A stretch of 64,000 bases of DNA from Liolophura sinensis (taxonomy: Eukaryota > Mollusca > Polyplacophora > Chitonida > Chitonidae): NCBI RefSeq assembly GCF_032854445.1, contig NC_088295.1:7254501-7318500 (forward strand), read 5' to 3'. Positions 31,550 through 39,716 of the stretch are shown one piece after another. How positions within the stretch are numbered: the stretch's first letter is position 1; the number at the start of each line of letters is the position of its first letter. Both the position numbers and the translations under genes were made by a program. The notes beneath the pieces were generated by a model, which saw only the letters and a list, made by a program, of their open reading frames with translations, made no database searches and was not told the DNA's origin.

Positions 31550-31736
31550 GAAACTAAAGAATGGAATGGCCTTGTGAAAGCATTGATGGACGACAAGGCT
31601 GACATTGTAGTTACCTCTCTTAAAATAACGCCTGAGCGGAACCAGAAGGTGGAGTTTTCGGTGCCGTATCTGGAGACTGGAATCACCATCATTGTTGGTA
31701 TCAGGGACGGTGCCATTTCTGCCACAGCCTTTCTAG
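31550..31736 (+). CDS. GRIN2: GluN2 exon 9 (S1 end, pre-M1)
   Basis: Acceptor cattccttcag, donor gtatgt, phase 0 in and 1 out. It codes ETKEWNGLVKALMDDKADIV, VTSLKITPERNQKVEFSVPY, LETGITIIVGIRDGAISATA, FL. The core SLTINEERSEVVDFSVPF of vertebrate GluN2 aligns without gaps. The ligand-binding Ser (535) and Arg (542) are present, but the Thr equivalent to GluN2A T513 is Lys (537). The exon ends at AFL-E, exactly where the duplicated M1 exons join in phase 1. Confidence 0.93.
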
Positions 31737-32329: not shown

Positions 32330-32725
32330 TTCCCCCCACCAATAATGAACCAGTGCCCGGCGAACGTTTGCCTAACATCACACTTAGTGAACGTCTGTCA
32401 TATGACCATTCGTTCAATCAATCTCTGATTTCCCGGACTGAACCGCATGTTGCTCAGGCATATTGAATCTCTGTCGGCAAACGTTTGCCTAACATCTGGT
32501 AATCACCTTTTGTTTCCGTATACTGAATCTTAGCCCAGCGAATGTTTGCTTAAGATCACTTAATCACTCTTTGTCCCCGCATGCTGAACCAATGTCCGGC
32601 GAGTGTTTTGCCTAACAACAGTTATCATTCTTTGCCCCTGTATACTGAACCACTGCCTGGCGAACGTTTGCATAATATCATGCATTCACACTTTGTTCCC
32701 GCATACTAAACCATTTCCACTTTAG
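32330..32725. repeat. ~61-bp degenerate array upstream of exon 10a
   Basis: About five copies containing cggcgaacgtttgcctaaca and ctttgtccccgcatactgaa, ending about 30 bp before the 10a acceptor. Confidence 0.88.
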
Positions 32726-32754: not shown

Positions 32755-32877
32755 AACCGTTTGATATGACCTCGTGGATTCTAATACTCCTGTTGTGTAT
32801 CCACGTTGTGTCCATCTTGGTTTTCACCTTTGAGTATACCAGTCCAAATGGCCTCAATAAAGGCCTTTATGTTGGAG
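32755..32877 (+). CDS. GRIN2: GluN2 exon 10a: M1 transmembrane helix, first alternative
   Basis: 123 nt, phase 1 at both ends, acceptor gttgcgtttcag, donor gtaatt. It codes EPFDMTSWILILLLCIHVVS then ILVFTFEYTSPNGLNKG and LYVG. It matches vertebrate EPFSADVWVMM...VFVFEYFSPVGYN, i.e. pre-M1, the M1 helix and the start of the M1-M2 linker. A second complete exon of the same kind follows at 33706. Each joins exon 9 and exon 11 in frame, so use of one or the other is expected. Confidence 0.85.
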
Positions 32878-33136
32878 GTAATTTGACATTTGACCGTCTC
32901 GGGTGTTGTAACATATTTACATGTGTATGCGCAGTAGGACGTCCAGACTCACGCTTGTCGACAAACGTTCCCACTTACCATTTCTCTTGCTTGTATTTCA
33001 ACACTCGTCATTGACAGTCCCTTTTCTATTGCTTGTATTTCGACACACGCCAATGACATTTCCTTATCATTCGTTTTATTTCAATACCCATCAGTTGCAC
33101 ATCCCATTTCAGCATTCACAATTGACATACCTTTAT

Positions 33137-33140
33137 CTTG

Positions 33141-33233
<93 letters not shown>

Positions 33234-33500
33234 ACCATGAGCACACCTCTGCCTCACGCCCTCTCTCTCCCACATGTCTCAACACCCACCAGGAGCACAC
33301 CTCTGCCTCACGCCTCTCTCTCCCGCCCGTCTCAACACCCAACATGAGCACACCTCTGCCTCATGTCTCTCTCTTCCGCCTGTCTCAACACCCACCATGA
33401 GCACATCTCTGCCTCATGCCTCTCTCTCCCGCCTGTCTCAACACCCACCATGAGCACACCTCTGCCTCATGCCTCTCTCCTCCCGCCTGCCTAAGCACTC
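33137..33500. repeat. (CT)n microsatellite and 53-bp minisatellite between exons 10a and 10b
   Basis: About 45 CT repeats (33142-33229) are followed by about five copies of a 53-bp unit (accatgagcacacctctgcc, tcatgcctctctctcccgcc). The long pyrimidine run is on the sense strand, directly between the two alternative M1 exons. Confidence 0.96.
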
Positions 33501-33705
33501 ATTATTGCCATATCACCTTTCTCTCCGGCATCTATCCCCACATTCTCCTTTTTGCGTTGCGGCCACAATCGCTAATCTTCAACTGCGATCAAAGAACATC
33601 CACACACACTTTATTTCAGTCTTCACTCAGGTGAGTCCTGACAACAAAAGCTTTATTGATTTGTTTATTTTATGTCTCTTTTTTATCTGGCTTGCTATCT
33701 TTCAG

Positions 33706-33831
33706 AGCCGTATGACTTCCCAGCGTGGTGTTTAATTCTAGTGTTTAGTGTTCATGCCATCGGAGCGTCTATTTTCATTTTTGAGTGGCTAAGCCCCCAA
33801 GGCCTCAATCAAGGGAAAACAGCAAAGAGAG
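33706..33831 (+). CDS. GRIN2: GluN2 exon 10b: M1 transmembrane helix, second alternative
   Basis: 126 nt, phase 1 at both ends, acceptor gctatctttcag, donor gtaact. It codes EPYDFPAWCLILVFSVHAIG, ASIFIFEWLSPQGLNQG and KTAKR. Seventeen of 41 aligned residues equal exon 10a, including EP, D, W, LIL, H, FxFE, SP and GLN; the exons differ in the middle and inner end of M1 and in linker charge (KTAKR versus LYVG). Using both exons together would put two M1 helices in series, which would break receptor topology, so mutually exclusive splicing is the natural reading. No stop codon or broken splice site suggests decay. Confidence 0.82.
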
Positions 33832-34304: not shown

Positions 34305-34328
34305 GCCTTGCTGACAAGCCCACCAGCG
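34305..34328 (+). CDS. GRIN2: Candidate 24-nt GluN2 microexon in the M1-M2 linker
   Basis: A strong polypyrimidine acceptor (gttttattttcttcctcacaag) is followed by 24 nt and a good donor (gtgagt). Phase 1 at both ends lets it sit between exon 10a/10b and exon 11, adding GLADKPTS. The vertebrate GluN2 linker at this place contains CLADGREPGGPS, so the LAD core is suggestive. It is too short for homology to be decisive. Confidence 0.5.
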
Positions 34329-36469
34329 GTGAGTGCATGTGTATTTTGAGTCAGTGTGTAAGGAGTAAAGATCACTGGGGTTAGGCAGGTTAAACCCACC
34401 CTAGCCGTAATATTACATGTAGCTAGCACCGGCGTGTTGTGGTCTGTTATGCAAAGAGTAGTTATGTTTACATGTAGTCTGTATCTCGTACATAAAACGG
34501 GAAAATACTCCTTAGAACCCAGTAGTTAGACTGTGGAATCACCAGCCCTTAAGACAACGCAAACAAAGCTACTTATTTCATGGTAATGCATTACGCGACC
34601 TGACGTTTCCTAAAACATTGCAAGCAAGGTCACATATGTTTTGTCAAAACAAGAAGTTAGCTATCCGTAAGGCAAAGCAAGGGTATATACACTGAGAAAT
34701 CCCCCTACATCGTAAGCTATATATCTCCATTAAAACCTGAAGAAAGACAAAGCAAATAAAAATACACCAGAAAACCTAAGCAAGAACTATAAAGTAAAAA
34801 ACTAAGAGAACTTAAAAAATTAAAATATGAAACTTACTCATGTAAGATAATCAGTTATCGGATTTCAGTGATTCCGGACAGACGCAAAGACTGTTCTTGG
34901 CGTAGAAATTTAATCAGAGCTCAAGTGGTGTTCAGTGCGAGAAATTCAATAATACAACTAGTAATGGTAATGCCACAAGCTCTGTAGACTCCGACCACAC
35001 GTACTTACAAGAGGATAATAGTCTTTTCTAAATGTAAGAAACATAGAGTGAAGGAATTTGATGGCTTATCCTTTACACGCGTCTAAACAGTTTTCATAGT
35101 AATAACTTGTGACGTTGATTGAAATCATCCCAATAAACTCAGAATCTAATAGTGCAATAAGGTAAGATATGTAAAGGCACTATGTAGGCCCTGTGGTATA
35201 TCCAAATAAGGATAAAAACTAAAACTAACAAGCCTGGGTAAGGGGAATCACCTGTCATTATATAGATGCATTAAAAAAAGATATATATCTCCACAAATAC
35301 TAACAATCCCCCAGAGAGAGAACAAGCAAAGCTTTACATCTCAGTCAAAACCCGCAACTGGCCTGTTAGATGGAGCACAGGAAGCTACATATCTCTGTGA
35401 AAACCTGAAGCTGGCGACCGTAGCTCTACCAAGAGTCCGCTTACTTCAGGTTTGGAAGGAGACGTACATGTATGTAATGCTTTTCTTTGCCTGTTTTACA
35501 CTGTCAGGATGTTTTCACTGGCTTTAGCTTTCTCGCACACAAGTGACTTTCTTTGCGCTGTCTTGAAGGCTTTGAATCTTAGTTACCTAGCAAGTAAAAA
35601 GTGTAATTATGGGGGAAATAGTAAAGTGCATAAATCTGTTATTCTCCATGAAAATCAGAAGCTAATAAGTTTTAATATAAAGCTACGCTCACGTTCCATC
35701 AAATATGAAAATTTCCGCTCTGTTTTTCCGTTTCATCTTCCCTTTTACCACGCATGATGTCGCTTACAAGGTGTCGTTTACTTCTCTAACACTTATTTCA
35801 AGGTGAACAAATCCACTTTAAGGAACACAGCAGTTAAAAGATTTATTACGTTATCATTTGAATGCTGGTCAAAAATTATATTTTGAAGAATGTGTATGTG
35901 TTAAGGGTAAAGAAACCTTGAATATGTGCTAAGAGATAGGTAAAGCTAAATGGCACAATGAATGTCTGGTGTAATGTGGTGTGTCTGTCTGCATGTTTCT
36001 ATATCTCACTCCTTATTCTAAACTGCTATTTGTCTATAAATGCATGACGAACACGTTATTACAACATTGTGACAGTCGCTCGCTACAATACATGGAATTA
36101 TTTGAACTGTAAGTCTTCTTCAATCATAGTTATTGTACATCGCTGTTGTGTGGGGTGGCTAAGGCGAAAGGTCATGTCCACAAACTGGCCTCTGGTCAAT
36201 GATCGTGAAGGTGTCGGGCCCCACATAACCAGTGCATTCTGTATTAAACTTGTGCTAATATTTAGTAATACCCGCCATAGATTCTCTAGGATAACGATTT
36301 TAAGCGACAAAAAGGTTTACAGATAATGTAAAAGCTCAACTCTGCGGTATGCATGTACGTTTTTGACATTTTCCGCAACTTTGATGACGTCAGTTTGAAT
36401 GTTAATGTGAGACAACCACATGGTATCATCAGATTCGACGAGAAGTTTCTTGACCGTGTTGTATTTTAG
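34329..36469. other. GluN2 intron before exon 11
   Basis: AT-rich; no repeat array, SINE or further M1-like exon seen. Confidence 0.5.
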
Positions 36470-36690
36470 AGCACAAGTTCTCGTTGTTTCGCTCCTTCTG
36501 GCTTATCTGGTCGATGCTGTTCCAAGCCACAGTGACCGTGGACAACCCTCGCGGCGTCTCCAGCCGCTTCTTGGCGAACGTTTGGGCGCTGTTCGCATTG
36601 GTCTTCCTGGCCAGTTACACAGCTAACCTCGCCGCCTTCATGATCACTAAGGAAGAGTACTGGGATTTGAGCGGCATTACCGACCTTAGG
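36470..36690 (+). CDS. GRIN2: GluN2 exon 11: M2 pore loop, M3 gate, S2 start
   Basis: Acceptor gttgtattttag, donor gtgagc, phase 1 in and 0 out. It codes [20 protein letters not shown], then [39 protein letters not shown] and [19 protein letters not shown], the M3 gate SYTANLAAF and FMITKEEY are diagnostic of GluN2. At the N-site, where vertebrate GluN2 has FNNS, this protein has FQAT: Gln replaces Asn (634). The M2 Trp is kept (LIWSM). At the M3 position where vertebrate GluN2 has Ser (A/B) or Leu (C/D), it has Asn (ANVWA). Confidence 0.95.
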
Positions 36691-37448: not shown

Positions 37449-37609
37449 ATCAAGAATCCGTATGTGACAAAGCCCCCATTCCGGTTCGCGACGGTTCCGT
37501 ACGGAAGCACAGAGACTAATCTCATTAACAATCATTACGAGGTGTACCAGTACATGAAGAAGTTCAACAAGAGCAGTGTCAACGAGGGTATAGAAGCCGT
37601 CAAGACAAG
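37449..37609 (+). CDS. GRIN2: GluN2 exon 12 (S2 ligand-binding half)
   Basis: Acceptor tttttttcttag, donor gtacgt, phase 0 in and 2 out. It codes IKNPYVTKPPFRFATVPYGS, TETNLINNHYEVYQYMKKFN and KSSVNEGIEAVKT. It equals vertebrate GluN2 [20 protein letters not shown]...YMHQYMTKFN. The GST at 708-710 supplies the Ser-Thr pair that binds the glutamate side-chain carboxylate in GluN2. A nearly full-length SINE lies in the intron before it. Confidence 0.94.
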
Positions 37610-37949: not shown

Positions 37950-38131
37950 TTCCATTGACGCGTTCATCTATGACGCCACGGTGCTGGAATACCGAGCTGG
38001 CAAGGACAAAGACTGTAAGCTGAGGACTGTTGGCGACTGGTACGCCCGCACCGGTTACGGCGTGGCCTTTCCCTATGGCTCGAAGTGGATCGACCCTATC
38101 AATCAAGTGATCCTCCAGCTTCAGGCAGATG
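37950..38131 (+). CDS. GRIN2: GluN2 exon 13 (S2 ligand-binding half)
   Basis: Acceptor atacttgcacag, donor gtatgt, phase 2 in and 1 out. It codes SSIDAFIYDATVLEYRAGKD, KDCKLRTVGDWYARTGYGVA, FPYGSKWIDPINQVILQLQA and D. Asp751 in FIYDA is the conserved ligand amino-group contact (GluN2A D731). KDCKL supplies one cysteine of the S2 disulfide, and the partner lies at GACSK in exon 14. It ends in QADG, where the exon-14 acceptor choice decides the next residues. Confidence 0.94.
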
Positions 38132-39415: not shown

Positions 39416-39487
39416 TGTAAAAATTTCCTCTGTTTTGCTAGGCGAACTATTAGATGTAAAAATTTCCTCTGTTTTGCTAGGCGAACT
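39416..39487 (+). repeat. 39-bp tandem duplication of the exon-14 acceptor
   Basis: tgtaaaaatttcctctgttt through tgctaggcgaact occurs twice, 39 bp apart, each copy with a pyrimidine tract and AG. The upstream site would start exon 14 at 39442 and keep the frame. Confidence 0.95.
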
Positions 39488-39716
39488 TGAGCGGCTACAG
39501 CGGTTCTGGATGGCGGGCGCCTGCTCCAAGACCAAGAAGAAAGGAGAAAAAAGTCATAAACTGGGAATACCGAACTTCACCAGCGCCTTTATCCTACTTT
39601 TAGTCGGCATGTTGCTGGGGGCCATTCTCCTCACAATGGAACACTCCTACTTTAAATTCGGTCGTGGGTGTTTACGGAAATGGGACAAGTGTGGCTGTTG
39701 TGGTTTGGTCAGCTTG
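39481..39716 (+). CDS. GRIN2: GluN2 exon 14: S2 end, M4 helix
   Basis: Default acceptor ctgttttgctag ends at 39480, donor gtaagt, phase 1 in and 0 out. It codes GELERLQRFWMAGACSKTKK, then IPNFTSAFILLLVGMLLGAI, LLTMEHSYFKFGRG and CLRKWDKCGCCGLVSL. GELERLQRFWMAGAC equals vertebrate GEMEELEALWLTGIC. M4 is followed at once by a basic, cysteine-rich stretch (KCGCC), a plausible palmitoylation site by inference. A duplicated acceptor 39 nt upstream (exon would start at 39442) keeps the frame open and would add 13 residues (ELLDVKISSVLLG) just before the helix leading to M4. Confidence 0.93.

Follow-up and report, generated by a model that had tools for sequence, protein, structure and literature searches.

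Two tandem copies, here called 10a and 10b, represent the exon for pre-M1, the M1 helix and the start of the M1-M2 linker in an NMDA receptor gene of GluN2 type from the chiton Liolophura sinensis. The most probable reading of the locus, and one in which we place considerable confidence, is that of a single GluN2 gene with an old tandem duplication of M1, each mRNA of which would take either 10a or 10b. The gene lies on the + strand of the window, by which we mean the whole stretch of 64,000 nucleotides analysed here (positions 7,254,501-7,318,500 of contig C1). According to its report the genome was first described under the name Liolophura japonica (PMC11068029), and a published correction assigns it to L. 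sinensis (PMC12441733). The exon numbers 9-11 are those of a preliminary description of this DNA and are provisional. The features on which the argument rests are the following.

31550-31736, + strand: upstream exon (exon 9 of the preliminary description), with the S1 ligand-binding end and the linker to pre-M1; from AG/GT bounds and frame
32755-32877, + strand: exon 10a, with pre-M1, the M1 helix and the start of the M1-M2 linker (EPFDMTSWILILLLCIHVVSILVFTFEYTSPNGLNKGLYVG); from the M1 profile, phase 1-1 and no stop
33706-33831, + strand: exon 10b, the second copy of the pre-M1, M1 and linker-start segment (EPYDFPAWCLILVFSVHAIGASIFIFEWLSPQGLNQGKTAKR); from the M1 profile, phase 1-1 and no stop
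34305-34328, + strand: candidate microexon of 24 nt (GLADKPTS); from a splice-site pair and phase 1-1
36470-36690, + strand: exon with the M2 pore loop and M3 (SYTANLAAF motif); from GluN2D alignment and frame
37449-37609, + strand: S2 exon with the GSTETN segment; from GluN2D alignment and frame
37950-38131, + strand: S2 exon with DAFIYDA; from GluN2D alignment and frame
39481-39716, + strand: exon with the S2 end and M4; from GluN2D alignment and frame

A single open frame runs through 12 exons between 25475 and 39716 when 10a and the candidate microexon are included. The 370-residue spliced core (with 10a and without the microexon) has GluN2D as its best solved relative (E 1.2e-97), and the best 60 of its 391 matches comprise 59 named GluN2 or NR2 and one named only 'Glutamate receptor'. 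Among the closest solved relatives this GluN2 relatedness spans S1, M1-M3, S2 and M4. Alignment to GluN2D also places the glutamate-contact segments, namely the R of the S1 ER motif, the GST in S2 and the D of DAFIYDA, residues that we take to contact glutamate. The pore loop reads FQATV in this alignment, as against FNNSV in GluN2D, and the asparagine pair of vertebrate GluN2A-D is absent; glutamine at this site is common in protostome GluN2. Judged by its sequence, the gene belongs to the protostome Grin2 group of glutamate-binding subunits, and no vertebrate GluN2A-D subtype is claimed for it. For protostomes a single Grin2 gene is described in an Aplysia survey (PMC5225553), and no second GluN2 gene was found in the chiton genome among the long matches classified. 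The acceptor of the M4 exon is itself duplicated in tandem (39442 and 39481, 39 nt apart), and splicing to the upstream copy at 39442 would lengthen the protein by 13 residues without a frame shift. Neither Rfam families nor tRNAs were detected when the window was scanned for them.

The other glutamate receptor genes of the chiton provide a background for this locus. GluN1 lies at C1:54.9 Mb, and an M1 profile built only from vertebrates finds one M1 segment in its 9.9-kb stretch. By best solved relative, the next four long genome matches are three GluN3A-like stretches and one kainate-like stretch. The GluN3A-like stretches (on C7 at 14.97, 14.82 and 26.60 Mb) each run in a single open frame from the end of S1 through M3, so that M1 is not a separate exon in these three. 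Many Lig_chan matches are found at C1:6.07-6.31 Mb and on C6, probably an expanded ionotropic receptor family. Contig C99 contains seven cox1 matches, full or partial, spaced at about 15.5 kb, which probably represent a mitochondrial assembly concatemer. On contig C632, of which 10,000 of 15,209 bases were read, the mitochondrial genes follow an order of molluscan type.

The preliminary description had reported two exons of 123 nt (10a) and 126 nt (10b), each with phase 1 on either side and good splice sites, with 17 of 41 residues identical and no stop, and all of this is borne out, AG and GT flanking each exon. The exons hold 41 and 42 codons respectively, all 17 identical residues fall within the first 37 positions of their alignment, and the BLOSUM62 local score of 108 compares with a maximum of 44 in 20,000 shuffles. 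That both encode M1 is supported by the vertebrate-only profile, which was built from the M1 segments of GluN2A, 2C, 2D and GluN1 and searched against all six-frame segments of the window of at least 15 residues. Exons 10a (E 1.5e-9) and 10b (E 4.7e-4) are the two best segments in the window, the next stands at E 0.046, and no third M1 copy was detected in the window below E 0.01. Leave-one-out profiles made from the other exon and the vertebrates find 10b at E 4e-8 and 10a at E 5.7e-15, while a whole-genome protein query yielded 71 matches, those confined to M1 being 10a (E 1.1e-20) and 10b (E 8.9e-5). A chance open reading frame as the source of the pair is ruled out by the shuffles and the profile.

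At the residue level, the pre-M1 proline and the M1 tryptophan are present in both copies, and of the five positions identical across three vertebrate GluN2 and two GluN1 sequences 10a keeps five and 10b four. Identity to GluN2A, 2C and 2D over 37 residues amounts to 15, 15 and 15 for 10a and to 11, 12 and 14 for 10b. The best 19-residue Kyte-Doolittle mean is 2.74 in 10a and 2.23 in 10b (2.35-2.89 in the other five M1 segments), and on these values both are hydrophobic enough for a predicted membrane helix. The spliced core scores 122.3 bits against Pfam Lig_chan with 10b and 118.5 bits with 10a; given that either version passes, we count this in favour of two usable alternatives. The introns flanking the M1 exons are GT-AG. 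According to splice-site scoring matrices applied to 11 exons, the acceptor and donor score 3.0 and 4.1 in 10a and 5.5 and 3.6 in 10b, where the range over the 11 exons is -1.2 to 8.5 for acceptors and 3.2 to 5.4 for donors. The two are adjacent, internal and similar, have the same phase and are nearly equal in length, as is expected of tandem-duplicated mutually exclusive exons.

The reading of a similar pair free of stops can be extended to long-term constraint on the proteins that both exons encode. Codon positions of 10a and 10b agree at 22, 28 and 16 of 37 aligned codons for the first, second and third position, respectively, and dN is 0.43 with a dS of 1.71 (NG86) or 1.23 (LWL85). Synonymous sites are thus near saturation and dN lies below dS, which argues that selection has maintained both copies. 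In a neutral simulation, mutation without selection was continued until third positions matched the observed 16/37 (5000 runs). Starting from 10a, at least 17 identical residues were kept in 0.5% of runs and no stop arose in 25%, and none of the runs reached the similarity of 10b to GluN2D; starting from 10b, the corresponding outcomes were 0.6%, 20% and none. When a lower divergence is assumed, with third-position identity of 24/37 and 28/37, 17 residues survive in 37% and 82% of runs, respectively, and the identity test is therefore weak there, although the GluN2D-similarity test still separates (0.1% and 1% of runs). Judged by these substitution patterns, both copies have been under long-term purifying selection. 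In a tree of seven M1 segments the branches of 10a and 10b measure 0.45 and 0.55 and a branch of 0.70 splits the pair from the rest, but these lengths are rough because the tree places GluN1 within the vertebrate GluN2s, a long-branch error. The corresponding distances, in substitutions per site over 37 sites, are 1.0 between the copies and about 1.15 (10a) and 1.25 (10b) to GluN2D, with a one-residue GluN1 gap placed by hand and a dating that is relative only. On this scale, the duplication seems ancient when set against the rate at which the exon itself evolves.

These results bear directly on the improbable alternative that one copy, most likely 10b, is a relic no longer in use. Exon 10b is less vertebrate-like than 10a, with 17.7 against 35.2 bits in the vertebrate-only profile and 10 against 12 of 24 vertebrate-invariant residues kept, and it is one codon longer; a recently dead copy could also pass the identity test, given the 82% of runs at 28/37. 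A relic is difficult to reconcile with synonymous divergence near saturation while 17 of 37 residues are kept, the frame is open and the splice sites are intact, or with neutral runs that match rarely (0.5%) or, for GluN2D similarity, never, and the Pfam Lig_chan score is slightly higher with 10b than with 10a. Far less credible still is an assembly artefact or a mis-joined haplotype, given that 24 of 41 residues are not shared between the copies, that the 150-nt stretches preceding the two exons show little similarity (score 14 as against 31.5 for the exons, without a shuffle control) and that a DNA search of the assembly finds only the region itself and an adjoining 56-base piece; on these three grounds we reject it. 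Weighing against two maintained and alternatively used copies are the lower profile fit of 10b, the lack of excess RNA pairing and the single M1 exon in the GluN1 stretch.

The exclusivity of the choice has to be considered separately from the use of both copies. The upstream exon ends in phase 1 and aligns without gaps to GluN2D from its fifth residue. Both 10a and 10b join 31550-31736 to 36470-36690 in frame, so that the earlier statement that either connects exons 9 and 11 holds for these joins and is to be amended by the 24-nt microexon candidate that intervenes before M2/M3. All four splice outcomes (9-10a-M2, 9-10b-M2, 9-10a-10b-M2 and 9-M2) are in frame, and double inclusion, which proceeds through 10a and 10b without a stop, would indeed add a membrane helix as had been proposed. 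Since all combinations are in frame, frame shift and nonsense-mediated decay cannot enforce exclusivity, and this mechanism is ruled out; a steric block between 10a and 10b is likewise ruled out by the intervening intron of 828 nt. RNA docking pairs were sought in three intron pairs (25 shuffles per pair in windows of 90 nt with the CT tract masked; pairs taken from introns other than the one after the microexon) and none beats its shuffles, the best intron-intron duplexes being -41.2, -39.8 and -39.3 kcal/mol versus shuffle means of -40.1, -42.0 and -42.2. The same three observations speak for an alternative that we consider unlikely, in which 10a and 10b are both in use without being strictly exclusive: decay does not remove any of the four outcomes, nothing blocks 10a and 10b sterically and no pairing signal was seen in the pairs tested, and transcripts with both or neither would yield topologically altered, perhaps dominant-negative or retained subunits. 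Against it stands a published argument that tandem exons coding transmembrane helices are hardly spliceable as cassettes (PMC5740500). By this argument an extra or missing M1 would reverse the membrane side of all downstream parts, which strongly favours mutual exclusivity. As described in the same source, unequal frame applies to 60% and steric interference to 9% of human mutually exclusive clusters, and such features cover only part of them; mutually exclusive exons are recognised there by junction reads that lead from each exon past the other, with none that connect the two (PMC5740500).

Mutually exclusive use is, in our view, the best reading of the pair. Of the preliminary proposal of probable mutually exclusive splicing, the GluN2-type gene, the M1 identity of the exons, the constraint on both and the extra helix on double inclusion stand as described; the exclusive choice itself we infer from them. 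Both exons would be spliced, with a choice between them that is presumably exclusive and under regulation by cell or stage, and splicing factors would most likely impose the exclusivity. The two resulting GluN2 subunits would be the same outside three parts, namely the pre-M1 collar, M1 itself and the opening residues of the M1-M2 linker.

Two elements of the 10a-10b intron may be relevant to such a choice.

33143-33229, + strand: (CT)43.5 tract in the 10a-10b intron; from Tandem Repeats Finder
33620-33639, + strand: possible decoy or recursive splice site CAG/GTGAGT, with the intron start at 33631; from its splice-site score

By its splice-site score, the GT at 33631 is the top-scoring of 4322 + strand GT sites in the window. 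The site follows a pyrimidine-rich stretch and an AG, in the manner of recursive splice sites, and lies 75 nt upstream of the 10b acceptor; sites of this recursive-like kind number two in the window, as against an expectation of 0.55. Four of the five branch-point-like motifs in the AG-free zone fall within 50 nt of this strong donor. The frame of a phase-1 exon ending at donor 33630 meets stops about 55 and 140 nt upstream, and such an exon could therefore only be shorter than about 55 nt. It can be speculated that U1 on the decoy 5' splice site may crowd U2 off the 10b branch point and that 10a would win unless the decoy is blocked, so that this site would possibly act as the switch for the choice between 10a and 10b. 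The CT tract is a possible binding site for a polypyrimidine-tract protein. Tandem repeats beside the M1 exons are found at 32475-32713 (61 bp), 32981-33084 (42 bp), 33143-33229 (CT) and 33207-33489 (53 bp).

The 24-nt microexon represents a candidate for a second alternative part of the gene. The segment 34305-34328 is the sole phase-compatible site pair scoring at least as high as itself in the five introns tested, and the Markov-1 expectation for such a pair in its own 2638-nt intron is 0.03. A TGCATG at 34334, just downstream, is presumably an Rbfox-type motif. In alignment, the M1-M2 loop with 10a is four residues shorter than that of GluN2D without the microexon and four residues longer with it; the candidate, if used, would lengthen this loop by eight residues.

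The swapped segment starts at the Glu-Pro pair in the pre-M1 helix. The proline corresponds to residue 552 of GluN2A (chain numbering) and is retained in both 10a and 10b. In vertebrate GluN2B, pre-M1 is like that of GluN2A, which reads EPFSASVW, while GluN2C and 2D read EPYSPAVW. The chiton copies read EPFDMTSW in 10a and EPYDFPAW in 10b, and the second proline is found only in the latter, which further differs by a patch of Gly, Ala and Ser midway along the helix and by the basic character of its linker end (GKTAKR, as against GLYVG in 10a). Changes in pre-M1 can act strongly, as reported for GluN2A-P552R, which slows activation and deactivation (PMC5240934), and a swap of M1 would be expected to change channel gating. 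The pre-M1 of 10a thus resembles that of GluN2A and the pre-M1 of 10b that of GluN2C and 2D, but this likeness rests on two positions, overall identity does not track it and the second proline of 10b sits one position later than that of GluN2C and 2D, so that the parallel is only suggestive. Both the vertebrate paralogues and the chiton exons offer pre-M1/M1 versions that differ in EPF versus EPY plus a second proline; in vertebrates these versions reside in separate genes, whereas in the chiton they reside in exons of one gene. A bolder proposal, which we regard as rather doubtful, is that the chiton generates NMDA subtypes from one gene at the RNA level, paralleling GluN2A-like versus GluN2C/D pre-M1, with the decoy as the switch and the microexon as a second layer. 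If the exclusive use of 10a and 10b is true, one gene would give two differently tuned channels, and this natural pre-M1/M1 swap would show how a lineage with a single GluN2 diversifies. It would also provide two M1 modules tested by evolution on an otherwise identical subunit, and thereby a clean test of M1 in gating.

Among the matches listed from the literature on receptor and channel splicing, drawn from a collection without most subscription papers, none describes alternative M1 exons in an NMDA receptor. The M2/M3 exon had no match among the viral contigs scanned. The human GluN2 splice events described in the NMDA receptor section of an RNA-seq survey comprise 5'-UTR exons, an exitron at the C terminus, a cassette in S2 of GluN2C and variants that are non-functional (PMC8257547); no M1 alternative is among these described events, in agreement with the earlier comment that such a switch is no familiar mechanism of vertebrate NMDA receptors. 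The part of the Aplysia survey concerned with these genes gives one Grin1 splice variant and mentions no Grin2 variant (PMC5225553), which we count against M1 switching in the chiton.

Among known systems, the flip/flop exons of the AMPA receptors (vertebrate GluA1-4) are a close counterpart and the known case in glutamate receptors, as they too are used in mutual exclusion and exchange a small piece of an ionotropic glutamate receptor, in that case 115 nt and 38 amino acids (PMC8257547). Flip/flop sits at the S2 end and the S2-M4 linker, and its 115 nt are not a multiple of three, which leaves wrong combinations open to decay (PMC8257547), whereas the chiton swap concerns pre-M1 and M1 and its combinations are all in frame. 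The cacophony (Cav2) gene of Drosophila is, as described, also an invertebrate channel diversified by exon pairs that are not conserved in vertebrates (PMC11828482), although it encodes a voltage-gated channel and other segments are exchanged, in contrast to the M1 of an NMDA receptor. Switching between tandem exons has been reported to be enriched in human ion channels and in genes of the glutamatergic synapse (PMC9741552). The 24-nt microexon candidate and the strongest 5' splice site of the window, which lies before 10b and may serve as a decoy, are newly noted here. We contend that the principle of tandem-exon switching is known, and that what would be new in the chiton, if the two exons are spliced as proposed, is its location at M1 and the absence of a frame safeguard.
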